This document shows positions 2,975 through 39,931 of a stretch of DNA of 64,000 nucleotides, piece after piece (the stretch's first letter is position 1; each line of letters opens with the position of its first letter). The notes under the pieces were generated by a model. It had not been told where the DNA came from and searched no databases. It saw nothing but the letters and a program-made list of their open reading frames with translations. The translations under genes and the position numbers were made by a program. The stretch comes from Frigoriglobus tundricola (lineage in GTDB: Bacteria > Planctomycetota > Planctomycetia > Gemmatales > Gemmataceae), in the NCBI RefSeq assembly GCF_013128195.2, contig NZ_CP053452.2:4092001-4156000 (forward strand). The letters run 5' to 3'.

Positions 2975-3640
2975 TCACGGGTCAAGCGGCTCACGGGTGA
3001 AAAACCACTCGCTCGACTGGGACGCGGTCGGAAAGGTCTTCACGCCGACCACGGCGACAGTCTGCCGGTTTTCGATGTCATCGACGACGCGACCGAAAGT
3101 GCCGGACCGGCCGGGTCGAATTTCCGAGGACAAGATGTGACCGAGTACCCGATATCCGCGCACCTCTTCGGAGGGGGCGCTTCTCGTCGAGTTCCAGGGG
3201 CCATCCAACCCGCACAAGAACGCGCCATCTTCTTTCCGAAAGACCGTGTGGGCCGCGTCGTCCGGTGTGCGCGTGCCCCCAACGGCTCGCGGGCCGTCCG
3301 CACCTTGACCCCAGAGAAGCTGGTACGAGACGGCGCGGGTTCCTCCCGGTATCCCCGTGATCGCCCACTGCCCGCGTCGGCCACGGAATTTCCCGTCCTC
3401 GAAGGCCAGAACGGCGATCACGCCGTAGTTCTCGTTTTCGGGCAACTCGTATTCGCCTCCGATCGACTTGGCGTCGAGAAAACTTCGGAGGGCGGTGTCG
3501 GCTTGGAGCGAGGGGCGCCCCGTGCCTGACACGGGAGGCGCGACACTGGGATGCGAATCACGCCAAAGGAGATACCCACAGCACGCCACGAGGGCCAATG
3601 TGAGAGCCGTGCGCGCGACTCGCCAGATTCGGAACAGCAT
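2975..3640 (-). CDS. Unknown protein with N-terminal membrane anchor
   Basis: 221 residues; I do not recognise a family. Residues about 5-25 (FRIWRVARTALTLALVACCG) form a hydrophobic segment preceded by arginines, which suggests a signal anchor or uncleaved signal peptide. The rest is soluble, with a proline-rich linker after the anchor and a region of alternating strands (YGVIAVLAFEDGKFRG, WAITGIPGGTRAVSYQLLW), which may be a beta-rich extracytoplasmic domain. It lies between sbcD and the ferredoxin gene on the same strand, but nothing links them in function. No close paralogue in the window. Confidence 0.6.
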   Translation of the reverse strand: MLFRIWRVARTALTLALVACCGYLLWRDSHPSVAPPVSGTGRPSLQADTALRSFLDAKSIGGEYELPENENYGVIAVLAFEDGKFRGRRGQWAITGIPGGTRAVSYQLLWGQGADGPRAVGGTRTPDDAAHTVFRKEDGAFLCGLDGPWNSTRSAPSEEVRGYRVLGHILSSEIRPGRSGTFGRVVDDIENRQTVAVVGVKTFPTASQSSEWFFTREPLDP

Positions 3641-33105: not shown

Positions 33106-34518
33106 CTACATCCCTTCCGGCGGGAACATCGACCGGAGGAGGCGCGAGGACAGGTCGAACTCCGGCGTAAACGCGAGTTCCACGGCGGCCACCGAACTCA
33201 CGCGGATGCTCATCGACCGCACCGCCCCGGTGGCCCGGCCGTCCACGAACCCGCGGAGCGGGCGCTTCGGGTTCGTGCCCGGTTCGTCCCGGTGGTTCAA
33301 GCTGGTGAGCGTCACCGCCGCGGTTTCGGGCAGCGCGACCGGGCGCCAGAACCGCGGGAGGAACACGTTCGACCCGGTCAGCGTGAGGACCGGTGCGGTC
33401 AGCGGCACCGGCGTCGCGCCCATCGCCCGCGCGTAGGAGCTGCCGCCCGCGGGCGTCGCCACCAGGAGCCCGTCGCCGACCACCTTCGACACCTGGGTGC
33501 GGCCGTCGATGCCCACGCGGAGCCACGCCGCCTGGCCGCTCTCGCGCTCCACCCACGCGTCGCCGCACGCCAGCGCCCGCGACCACTTCCCGTCCGGCGC
33601 TTCGGTGTCCACCCGCAGCATCGGCATCCGGTAGAGCACCAGTTCCGACCCGCCGAGGGCGGTCGGCAGGGACTCGTTCATCAGGAAGCCGAGCGTCCCG
33701 GCGTTCAGGCCGATGAACGGGAGCCGCAGGCGCCAGTGGTCGCGGATGGCCTGGAGCATGGTGCCGTCGCCCCCGATGGCCAGGACGTGCGTCGGGGCGT
33801 CGGACTCGTAGCGGCGGAACCGCTCGGCGAAGCCGCGGGCCTTCTCGTTCCGCTCGTCGAACACGAACTTCAGCCGCAGGTCGGTGAGGCGCACGCGGGT
33901 CTCGCGCGGGCTGGGCGTGCCGGAGAACAGCGCGTACCGGCGGATGTACGCCTCCACCGCCGGGGGCACGTCCGGGTGGGCCGTCCCGCCCTGGAAGATG
34001 CGCGTGCGGATGTCGGCGGTCGGTACGTGGCCGGCGGCCTCCACCAGCTTACACGCCGGCGGCAGGTCGGCCTTCTCGGGCGCCCGGTCCTCGGGGTGCA
34101 ACACGATGAACCGCCCGGCGGCCCACAGGTCGGCGCCGCACTCCCATTTCGTGTGGACCCAGGACTGGCCGTTCCGCCCGCCGGCGACGAACTCATCGGA
34201 CACGACGTGCCACACCTCCCCGTGGTCGGCGTGGAGGTCGTCGAAGGCGACCGGCGGGGTGAACACGCCGTCGTCCAGGTCCGACAGATCGACCGACACG
34301 CCGGGCAGGTCGCGGAACGCCAGATCGACCATCACGGCGCGGTGGATCGGGGTCGCGTGCTCCAACTCGTCGGTGTCGCCCCGGGGGCCGTTCGGGCGGA
34401 CGATGACCTCGTCGAACCCGCGCTCGCGGAGCAACGTCGCCACGCGGCGGTGGAACGTGGTGGGCGGGTCGAAGCTACCGGTGAAGATCGCCACCTTCCG
34501 GCGCTTGATCGGTACCAC
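33106..34518 (-). CDS. Fusion of a NadD-like adenylyltransferase and NAD kinase
   Basis: 470 residues from a GTG at 34518, but the frame is open further upstream and joins the CobT-like part without a stop. Residues about 8-190 are a nucleotidyltransferase: VAIFTGSFDPPTTFHRRVA (GxFxPxxxxH, first His of HxGH replaced) and PTADIRTRIF in place of ISxTxIR. Residues about 205-470 are an NAD kinase: LAIGGDGTMLQAIR, FIGLNAGTLGFLMNE and VVGDGLLVATPAGGSSYARA, the expected GGDGT, NxGxLGF and GDGLLVxTPxGS motifs. NadD makes deamido-NAD from NaMN, and NAD kinase makes NADP. To find both on one chain is unusual. A purely kinase role with an inactive N-domain is possible because of the altered HxGH. Confidence 0.85.
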   Translation of the reverse strand: MVPIKRRKVAIFTGSFDPPTTFHRRVATLLRERGFDEVIVRPNGPRGDTDELEHATPIHRAVMVDLAFRDLPGVSVDLSDLDDGVFTPPVAFDDLHADHGEVWHVVSDEFVAGGRNGQSWVHTKWECGADLWAAGRFIVLHPEDRAPEKADLPPACKLVEAAGHVPTADIRTRIFQGGTAHPDVPPAVEAYIRRYALFSGTPSPRETRVRLTDLRLKFVFDERNEKARGFAERFRRYESDAPTHVLAIGGDGTMLQAIRDHWRLRLPFIGLNAGTLGFLMNESLPTALGGSELVLYRMPMLRVDTEAPDGKWSRALACGDAWVERESGQAAWLRVGIDGRTQVSKVVGDGLLVATPAGGSSYARAMGATPVPLTAPVLTLTGSNVFLPRFWRPVALPETAAVTLTSLNHRDEPGTNPKRPLRGFVDGRATGAVRSMSIRVSSVAAVELAFTPEFDLSSRLLRSMFPPEGM

Positions 34519-35428
34519 CTGTTCGAACGAGCGGATGCGCCGAACGGCCTGGGCCGTGATCGCGGCCGCCGCGTCGAGGACCGGCAGCGCCAGCAGCGCG
34601 CCGACGCCCTCGGACGCGCCGGCCCCGCGGTAGCCTTCTCGGAACGGGAGCGGCGGAAAGAACTCGGTGCCCTTTTCGCCCTTGTCCGAGGCCAGCGGGC
34701 CGGGGCGGGCGGCCGCCCGCTGACGGCGCGGGCCGACGTGCCCGGGGCGAGCCGCTCCGCAACGGTCCCGGCCGCGACCGCGAACGTGCCGTCGATCAGC
34801 ACGACGAGGCCGAGTTCGGCGGCCCGCGCGAAGAAGCCGGCCGCGGCGGCGAGGTCCGCTCCGCCCACGGCCGCCATCGCGGCGACCGGGTCGGCGTCCT
34901 GGTCGAGCCGGTCGCGGACGGCGAGGACGCGCTGGGCCGCGTCCTCGCTGCCGGCGCCGAGGGCGTCGGCGGCGACCACTTTCATGCCGTCCTTCGCGGC
35001 GAGTTCGGCCTCGGTCCGCCCCACACCGAACGCGGCGCGGAACTCGGCGGCGGTGAGGGCGGGCTCTTTGGTGAAGTCGCGCGTCCCCGCGCGCGCCTTG
35101 CGGACCCGGTAGTTCGGCGTTTCCAGAAGGGGATCGCTCCGCGAGCCGACGTCAACGAGTACGAGATCGGTGCCGGTGGTCCGGGCGAGAACCGCGCTCG
35201 CGGACCCGCCCGACGCCACCTCGCGGATCGCGACCGCGATGTTGCTCTCGTCGCCGTGGCCGTGGTCCGCCGCGAACAGGACCAGCGCCGCGGCGCCGTG
35301 ACGGGCGCCAGCGACCGCTGGATCGCGCACAGCCGCGCGGCGACGGGCCGCAGGTCGCCGAGGCCGGTCGGCGGGACCGCGAGCGCCTCGAGGTGGGCGC
35401 GGATGTCGGCGTCGGTGAGTTCGGGCAT
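34519..35428 (-). pseudogene. CobT-like phosphoribosyltransferase region in three frames, upstream of and joined to NadD-NADK
   Basis: The protein similarity is continuous, but it moves through three frames. The first frame (start at ATG 35428) gives MPELTDADIRAHLEAL and ends its similarity at RLCAIQRSLAPV. The second frame, from about 35310, gives HGAAALVLFAADHGHGDE, YRVRKARAGTRDFTKEPALT and LAAAAGFFARAAELGLVVLIDG. The third frame, from about 34710, gives EGYRGAGASEGVGALLALPVLDAA and continues into the NadD-NADK gene. This order matches CobT, which uses NaMN to make alpha-ribazole phosphate for cobalamin; the GEMGIGNTT motif is degenerate (ALGAGSED). Both breaks behave like one missing base. 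Either sequencing errors hide a three-domain protein or the CobT part has decayed. Confidence 0.7.
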
Positions 35429-35517
35429 GAGCGCGGCGTCCGGCGGCAAGGAAACGACTGCCGGAGATTGTACGGGGCCGGACCGAGCGGGAGTGCCCGG
35501 AGTCGGTGCCGACGACG

Positions 35518-35623
35518 AAGACCTACCCCCCTGCCCCCTTCCCTGCCAGGAGGGGGTTGCAGTGGGAACCCGCGGGGGGGCACCCTCACAAGATGGGAGG
35601 GGAGCTGGGGAGGGTAGGTCTTC
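35518..35623. repeat. GAAGACCTACCCCC palindromic element
   Basis: Starts GAAGACCTACCCCC at 35518 and ends GGGTAGGTCTTC at 35623, with a CCCCCTTCCCTG..CAGGAGGGGG-type hairpin inside. It lies in the divergent gap 35429-35717 between the CobT-like region and the sigma factor gene. The same family is found at 1148-1280 and 37351-37409. Confidence 0.8.
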
Positions 35624-37334: not shown

Positions 37335-37350
37335 CCTCGCGCACTTGCGC

Positions 37351-37409
37351 GAAGAACACACCCCCCAGCCCCCCTCCCTTCAGGGAGGGGGCCGGGGGGG
37401 TAGGTCTTC
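37351..37409. repeat. GC-rich palindrome ending in TAGGTCTTC
   Basis: A CCCCCTCCCT-TC-AGGGAGGGGG hairpin bounded by GAAGAACACACCCCCC and GGGGGTAGGTCTTC, 16 bases after the sigma fusion stop codon. Same family as at 1148 and 35518. The rest of the gap up to 37608 shows nothing else. Confidence 0.8.
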
Positions 37410-37608
37410 GCCGCCTTTGCATCGGAAAACGAAGCCCGACCCCGACCAAACTCACGCCTGTGCCGACGCCGATTTGTCCGCATTTACTGTTTGCCCAGCC
37501 GGCTCCGCTCGAGTATTATCGGTAATTGCCCGCCGGCACTCTCCCGCCTGCATTGCCCCCCCCGCCAGGTATCCCGGAACCGCTTCCGGGTTCGCGTTGA
37601 GTCAATAC

Positions 37609-39931
37609 ATGCTTCGAATCGCACTTGTTGCCACACTGTTCGTACCGTCGTTCGGCACGGCCGCGGAGCCGCCCGCGCCGGACGCAAAAGCGGTGGAGTT
37701 CTTCGAGACGAAGATCCGGCCGGTCCTCGTCGAGCAGTGCTACAAGTGCCACTCGGAAGAGGCCGCGAAAGAGAAGAAGCTCAAAGGCGGTCTCAAGCTC
37801 GACACGAAGGCCGGGCTGCTCGCGGGCGGCGACACCGGGGCCGCGCTCGTGCCGGGCAAACCCGACGCCGGCACGCTGCTCAAGTCGATGAAGTACGACG
37901 GCGAACTGCAAATGCCGCCGAAGGGCAAGTTGCCGGACGCGGTCGTCAAGGACTTCGAGAAGTGGATCGCCGACGGCGCCGCCGACCCGCGCACCGGCGA
38001 CATCGCGAAAGCCGCCGGCATCGACATCGAGAAGGGCAAACAGTTCTGGTCGCTGCAAAAGCCCAAGGAGCCGGCGATTCCGGGGGAACCTCCCGCAGGT
38101 TCCCCCGCACCCCCTCCCGCTTCCCGGAACCGCGAAGACCGCGATCGACGCGTTCGTCGCCGCGAAGTGGGCCGAAAAGGGACTGAAACCGGTCGCGCCG
38201 GCCGACAAGCGGGCGCTCATCCGCCGGGCGTACTACGATCTGACGGGTCTGCCGCCGACAGCGGAAGCCGTCGATCGGTTCCTCGCCGATGAATCGCCGG
38301 ACGCGTTCACGAAGGTGATCGACACGCTGCTCGCGTCGCCCCAGTACGGCGAGAAGTGGGCGCGGCACTGGCTCGACGTGGCCCGGTACGCGGAGGACCA
38401 GGCGCACACCTTCGACGTGAAGCCCAAGACGCAAGCGTGGCGGTACCGCGACTGGGTCATCGCCGCGTTCAACAGCGACATGCCCTACGACCGGTTCGTG
38501 AAGCTCCAGCTCGCCGGCGACCTGCTGCCCGACGCGCCGGACGACCCGTTCACCCGGTTCGCGGGCCTCGGCTTCCTCGGCCTGGGCGCCGAGTACTACA
38601 AGAACACCGCGGCGGCCCAGGCCATCGCGGAGGAACTCGACGACCGCGTGGACACGGTCACCCGCGGGTTCCTCGGGGTCACCGTGGCCTGCGCCCGCTG
38701 CCACGACCACAAGTTCGACCCGATCCCGACCCGCGACTACTACTCGCTCGCCGGCATCTACATGGGAACCAACATGAGCGACGCCCCGCTGGCCCCGGCC
38801 GGCGAGGTGAAGGCGTTCAACGAGGCCCAAAACAGGGTCAAGCAGGCCGAGGAGAAGCTCAAGAAGGTCCGCGCCGAGATCAAAAAGCAGAAGGGCGGGT
38901 TCCGCGCCCCCGTCGCCAACGCGTTCGCCCTCAAGGCGCTCGGGGACGAGATCCCGAAGCTGAAGAAGGAGGTGCCGCCGGCCCCGCCCGTCGCGCACGT
39001 CATCAGCGGGAACGGCGCCGGCATGAAGGTCTACATCCGCGGGAACCCCGCGACCACCGGCGACGCCGCGCCGAAGGGCTTCCTGCAAGTGCTGCCGTCG
39101 GCGGCGGCGGCCGGCGACAAATTCACCCGGCTCGACCTCGCCAACGCCATCGCGTCGCGGGACAACCCGCTCACGGCCCGCGTGATCGTGAACCGGGTGT
39201 GGGCGTGGCACTTCGGCCGCGGCCTGGTCAGCACCCCGTCGAACTTCGGCGCGCTGGGCGACCGCCCCTCCCACCCCGAACTGCTCGACTGGCTCGCCGT
39301 CAACTTCGTCAAGAACGGCTGGTCGATGAAGTGGCTGCACAAGCAGATCATGACCACGGCGACCTACCAACTGGAGAGCCGGCCGGACCTCGACAACGAC
39401 AAGGTGGACGCGGCGAACGTGTACCTGTGGCGCGGCGCCCGCAAGCGGCTCGAGATCGAGGACTGGCGCGACACGCTGCTCGCGGTGAGCGGCACCCTCG
39501 ACCCCACGCTCGGCGGGCCGACGTTCGACCTCCGGGACGCGAACGCGCGGCGCCGCACGGTCTACGCGAAGGTGAGCCGCCACGAACTCAACGGCCTCCT
39601 GCGGCTGTTCGACTTCCCGGACGCGAACGTGACCGCCGACAAGCGGACCGTCACCACCGTCCCGCAGCAGCAGCTGTTCGCGCTCAACAGCGAGTTCATG
39701 ATCGGCCGGGCCAAGGCGTTCGCCCAGCGCGTGGAAGTGCTCGGGGCGACCGACGCCGAGCGCGTCGCGGCGGCGTACCGCATCGCCTACGGCCGGGCGC
39801 CCGAGGCGGCGGAACTCGACCTGGCGGTGAAGTTCCTCGCGCGGCCCGCGAAACCCGACGACAAGCTCACCCGCTGGCAGCAGTACGCACAGGTTCTTCT
39901 CGCCAGTAACGAGCTGATGTACGTAGACTGA
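37609..39931 (+). pseudogene. PSCyt1-DUF1549-DUF1553 protein broken by a frame change at a palindrome
   Basis: From the ATG at 37609 the first frame gives a signal peptide (LRIALVATLFVPSFGTAAE) and a cytochrome-c-like PSCyt1 domain with the haem motif QCYKCHS and ELQMPPKGKLPD. Similarity in this frame ends at SLQKPKEPAIPG. The next frame, from about 38110, continues GTAKTAIDAFVAAKW, LIRRAYYDLTGLPPTAEA (DUF1549), TVACARCHDHKFDPIP and the DUF1553 part ending ASNELMYVD. At the change lies a perfect GGGGGAACCT hairpin (38082-38106). The intact protein would be about 770 residues and is typically paired with a DUF1501 protein, as here. Insertion of the palindrome is the simplest cause, but a sequencing error is possible. 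Confidence 0.85.
38082..38106. repeat. Small palindrome at the frame break
   Basis: GGGGGAACCT (38082-38091) and AGGTTCCCCC (38097-38106) around CCCGC, followed by GCACCCCCTCCCGC. It lies at the junction of the PSCyt1 and DUF1549 parts. Confidence 0.85.

Follow-up and report, generated by a model that had tools for sequence, protein, structure and literature searches.

NAD kinases are needed by most cells and usually carry an NE pair. The proteins closest to the remainder of the gene described here are CobT and NadD. For CobT, passages of PMC9561151 give, for SeCobT, E317 as the general base and E174 as a ribose contact and, for MjCobT, phosphate contacts by Thr, Ser and Gly residues; for the E. 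coli NadD, passages of PMC1249556 describe His-45 as stacking on nicotinate mononucleotide (NaMN) and Asp-109 as the acid place, and allow Thr at the first place of the T/HxGH motif in the superfamily. A CobT domain within a fusion protein is found in BluB/CobT2 of Propionibacterium freudenreichii (PMC4657239). Here, we report a gene in Frigoriglobus tundricola (contig NZ_CP053452.2) in which a CobT-like domain, a NadD-like domain (NadD′) and a NAD kinase (NADK) domain are joined; it lies in a 64,000-nt stretch that was analysed as a whole (the window; its genome is G000). We consider it probable, from sequence comparison, that this gene is the NAD kinase of its clade with two repurposed N-terminal domains derived from NadD and CobT.

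The protein of the frame that encodes NadD′, NADK and the CobT C-terminus (frame C) was used to search 59 genomes, the window's own included, 19 of which belong to the same genus. Open frames of 747–841 codons matched it in the genus relatives, and nine of the 19 genomes (G001–G004, G008, G012, G013, G017 and G018) encode CobT, NadD′ and NADK in a single frame. Because nine related genomes encode all parts in one open frame, a chance open frame is ruled out; the CobT-NadD-NADK fusion is real, as a sequence-only reading of the window had proposed. For most of the genus the parts are not separate genes, a separate CobT gene occurring only in G009 and G014. In G016, CobT and NadD′ are present and the contig ends within NADK; in G006 and G011, a 5′ contig edge cuts the locus but leaves the CobT C-terminus in frame; the CobT N-terminal piece found on another contig is taken as the missing half of the fused gene; in the window and in G010, the fused locus is frame-broken inside CobT. 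With these five, 14 genomes were counted as fused. In G007 a CobT piece at the edge of a contig is all that was found, and NadD′-NADK stands without CobT in front in G005, G009, G014 and G015.

Across 95 genomes of the family (E value limit 1e-30), the three-part form was seen in this genus only and the NadD′-NADK core in further genera too, in a survey limited by contigs, with some loci (e.g. G113) cut at edges or preceded by long unread upstream frames. A protein database returned 197 relatives among 8000 scored candidates, the best 120 of which are listed. Among the matches listed, the named sources of fused proteins include Gemmata sp. G18, SH-PL17 and JC673, and for some members the automatic names assigned by JGI already mention two or three functions. 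The architecture is already visible in databases, and a literature search found no paper describing it. Two further relatives, P0058 and P0059, carry a different N-terminal part of about 100 residues ahead of NadD′-NADK, to which NCBIfam gave no identity.

In the window, the gene is laid out as follows.

35288..35428, minus strand: CobT-like N-terminal piece, frame A, ATG at 35428 (DBI_PRT 19.6 bits, below the cut-off)
35288..35300, minus strand: frame break 1 (A to B), from a codon-usage hidden Markov model (HMM)
34729..35292, minus strand: CobT-like middle piece, frame B, with AADHG and the altered GEMGIGNTT region (DBI_PRT 101 bits)
34690..34730, minus strand: frame break 2 (B to C), inside a linker of variable length, from the codon-usage HMM
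34510..34690 (about), minus strand: CobT-like C-terminal piece with linker, in frame C, running on into the NadD-like domain
33918..34497, minus strand: NadD-like domain (NadD′); TIGR00482 35 bits, positions 1–191 of 194; FDPPTTFHRR replaces FDPxHxGH
33106..33897, minus strand: NAD kinase domain; IGGDGTML kept; NF003406 141 bits, below its cut-off of 211; stop codon 33106–33108

NadD′ and NADK share one frame on the minus strand from a GTG (33106–34518), and frame C is open for 681 codons, with the CobT C-terminus upstream in the same frame. Pfam and NCBIfam agreed on the three domain identities, NadD weakly: NAD_kinase (PF01513) scored 36 bits (cut-off 25.5), TIGR00482 35 bits (cut-off 112), covering 191 of its 194 positions, and Pfam DBI_PRT 101 bits on the middle CobT piece (cut-off 22.6), with the N-terminal piece below that cut-off; P0001, the intact protein from Gemmata sp. 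G18, reached 126 DBI_PRT bits. Frames and profile matches thus agree with the sequence-only reading, which had placed the NadD-like domain, NADK and the CobT C-terminus in one frame and the rest of CobT in two others, and the HMM changes frame at the same places that it had named (about 35296 and 34724, both within CobT). A GC-rich short repeat lies near the gene and elsewhere in the window (35513–35556, 37349–37413 and 1147–1188); the same repeat occurs inside the CobT-NadD linker of relatives (L019, 1377–1414; L020 of G010, 3088–3118), lengthening the coding frame.

We infer NAD kinase activity for the C-terminal domain because it is the only NADK found at an E value of 0.001 (PF01513) in 18 of the 19 genus genomes; G007, which is 82 % complete, returned no PF01513 match at that threshold. 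The GGDG motif is kept in the window and in 120 proteins (the best 120 of the 197 relatives). The Thr that follows it is replaced by S, A, V or M in 15 of these 120 (e.g. P0028, P0029, P0034, P0036, P0050, P0072 and P0119).

NadD′ residues were counted over 150 proteins. The FDP motif is retained (F and P in 150, D in 143), as is the last His of T/HxGH (146); the first place holds Thr in 109 and His in none, while the Gly place never holds Gly and is occupied by F (74), Y (48) or H (22). At the His-45 place, His occurs in four of 150, and the neighbouring Arg-46 place has R in 49, where the alignment is uncertain. The bulky residue at the Gly place and the missing NaMN loop argue against adenylylation of NaMN. 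A normal NadD gene is present in 19 of 19 genus genomes, and in four longer relatives a NadD precedes NadD′-NADK: by profile in P0118 (NadD 165 bits, over the cut-off) and P0117 (CTP_transf_like 73 bits), and by motif only in P0120 and P0125 (HxGH; NxGH in P0125). Because these four proteins carry a NadD ahead of NadD′-NADK, NadD′ appears to be no substitute for NadD. A weakly MazG-like part stands before the NadD in these longer relatives (Pfam 17.8 and 21 bits in the two tested, below the cut-off of 22).

The CobT domain departs further from its relatives. In an alignment of 48 long fused proteins, drawn from the database relatives, against four standalone CobT, the Ser place of GVSA is gapped in 47 fused domains, and two marker places of the GRGTG loop are gapped in all 48 and a third in 47. 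At GEMGIGNTT, the residue equivalent to SeCobT E174 is kept in 11 of 48, the Asn in one and the two Thr in three and two (the window reads ADALGAGSED); HxSxEPGH is mostly lost. The lost loops may be those of the MjCobT phosphate contacts. The standalone CobT of G009, G014 and G023 retain the motifs. These losses suggest that the first domain probably does not catalyse the CobT reaction. The fold is intact in a predicted structure, 50 columns reach a conservation of 90 % or more across the 48 rows (five of them at the NadD′ edge), and on a quick tree the fused CobT domains group in a single clade next to the standalone CobT of planctomycetes. Ratios of non-synonymous to synonymous change (dN/dS), from ten relative pairs that share genomes and a simple counting method, were 0.207–0.437 for the CobT part, 0.066–0.183 for NadD′ and 0.049–0.154 for NADK, such that all three domains look constrained, CobT least.

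Partner genes for cobamide synthesis are missing alongside the fusion. Standalone CobT occurs in seven of the 59 genomes, all of which also have CobS, and G026 has CobS without CobT; in the 14 fused genomes we found no separate CobT, no CobS and no CobU, the last being found among the 19 genus genomes only in G014. Because the fused genomes are related to one another, they do not amount to 14 independent events. The proposal of the sequence-only reading that the locus joins NAD and cobalamin synthesis around NaMN is therefore not upheld, given the lost CobT motifs, the missing CobS and CobU, a NadD′ without the NaMN-stacking residue and a normal NadD elsewhere. Its remark on changed motifs holds for both HxGH and GEMGIGNTT, except that within HxGH the last His is kept and Thr is allowed at the first place, leaving the Gly as the residue lost. 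As to whether these domains catalyse or only bind, CobT catalysis is improbable in the first, as said, and the retained His and acid of NadD′ could possibly serve another transfer or mere binding.

Several observations weigh against a NAD kinase with two repurposed domains. In CobT, the Asp of AADHG is kept in 40 of 48 fused domains, and the general-base place (SeCobT E317) holds E in 19 and D in 20, across a gapped linker in the alignment (SEGVG in the window). More of CobT survives in P0046 (182 DBI_PRT bits) and in a few others, such that some residual CobT chemistry is not excluded in some members. In NadD′, the His-19 place is kept, the Asp-109 place is acidic (E 79, D 65 of 150) and the Arg of SSTxxR is present in 150 of 150, so adenylyl transfer may still occur. 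In NADK, most of the family have xD at the NE-pair place, whereas the more distant didomain proteins have NE or ND there; the window scores 141 bits against the NF003406 equivalog cut-off of 211, and G000 has a further weak NADK-profile match (E value 0.02, below the cut-off).

The frame breaks of the window copy are attributable to sequence error or recent mutation, the former being likely. The G010 copy (L020) is also broken within CobT, at a different place. As no other NADK was found, a real break would require an internal start, for which the GTG at 34518 is a candidate. PSCyt1, PSCyt2 and PSD1 are usually parts of one gene in planctomycetes; a nearby gene (37603–39928) has PSCyt1 in one frame and PSCyt2 and PSD1 in another, with a change at about 38080, and for that reason looks frame-broken too.

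That the triple protein is merely an artefact of a misassembled window is hardly credible. The window copy is spread over three frames and the PSCyt1/PSCyt2-PSD1 gene is split as well, but the protein is unbroken in nine genomes and in the database entries from the three Gemmata strains; an artefact may account for the breaks, not for the fusion. A true bi- or trifunctional enzyme, in which CobT and/or NadD act on NaMN and channel it, or split it between NAD(P) and alpha-ribotide synthesis, is improbable. An active CobT fusion is already known in BluB/CobT2 (PMC4657239), P0117, P0118, P0120 and P0125 show that joining of NAD(P) steps occurs, and the general-base acid (39 of 48) and the second His and acid of NadD′ are kept; set against this are the gapped GRGTG (48 of 48) and GVSA (47), the rarity of E174 (11 of 48) and of the GNTT Asn (one of 48), the lack of both CobS and CobU in the 14 fused genomes, the near absence of His at the His-45 place (four of 150) and of Gly in HxGH (zero of 150), and the normal NadD in every genus genome.

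It is rather unlikely, though a more serious alternative, that the CobT part, as a harmless relic, is tolerated in the form of an N-terminal extension that is now being lost and that NadD′-NADK alone matters, translated if need be from an internal start. The CobT part is the fastest-evolving of the three, the breaks of the window and of G010 both fall within it, four of the 19 genus genomes have NadD′-NADK without it, and on a quick NadD′-NADK tree the CobT label is patchy, with at least nine changes forced by starred branches. However, by their N-terminal letters some of the 'none' proteins of that tree (P0047, P0054 and P0055) are contig-cut CobT forms, the CobT dN/dS stays below 1, the open frame is maintained in nine genomes, and the conserved columns (with those at the NadD′ edge) and the modelled fold speak for a part that is still kept.

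Under the repurposed-domain reading, the C-terminal domain would make NADP. The NadD-like domain is a strongly conserved NADK partner in planctomycetes that retains the fold of a nucleotidyltransferase and several residues of the catalytic side and has lost those recognizing NaMN; a planctomycete CobT would have been joined in front in one Gemmata-like lineage, its pocket for the NaMN phosphate and the base decaying afterwards. Both N-terminal domains may now be binding, regulatory or structural parts, with NadD′, for instance, potentially accommodating a dinucleotide such as NADP. That they act as sensors is a guess with which the folds are compatible, its main rival being a CobT part that is structural or a relic; the specific version, in which NadD′ and CobT′, as retired enzymes of pyridine nucleotides, bind metabolites of the pathway (NADP, NaMN, nicotinate or a nucleobase ribotide) and thereby govern how fast NADP is made, is unlikely, and would turn old catalytic pockets into allosteric sites of one essential enzyme. 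Were the extra domains sensors, they would clearly exemplify the conversion of enzymes into allosteric components.

The gene presents a new domain make-up for NAD kinase and points to the reuse of a cobamide enzyme in genomes where genes for the cobamide nucleotide loop were not found. There is a warning for annotation as well: databases call the Gemmata sp. G18 and JC673 proteins CobT, though most active-site motifs are gone and neither CobS nor CobU was matched in the genome of G18 (G013). Relative to CobT (PF02277, TIGR03160), the GVSA loop, GEMGIGNTT, the GRGTG loop and HxSxEPGH are mostly lost, and the domain is fused to NADK in genomes where CobS and CobU were not found (the 14 fused). 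Relative to NadD (TIGR00482), NadD′ falls below the 112-bit cut-off, HxGH has become [T/G/S]x[F/Y/H]H and the His-45 place is lost. Relative to NAD kinase (PF01513; NF003406, PRK04761-like), the domain scores below the NF003406 cut-off, has NadD-like and CobT-like domains added and mostly reads xD for the usual NE pair. P0117, P0118, P0120 and P0125 share the NadD′-NADK core but carry NadD in place of CobT in front. In BluB/CobT2, each of the two domains has an active role in making cobamides (PMC4657239), whereas here CobT is partnered with a NAD kinase and its motifs are degraded.
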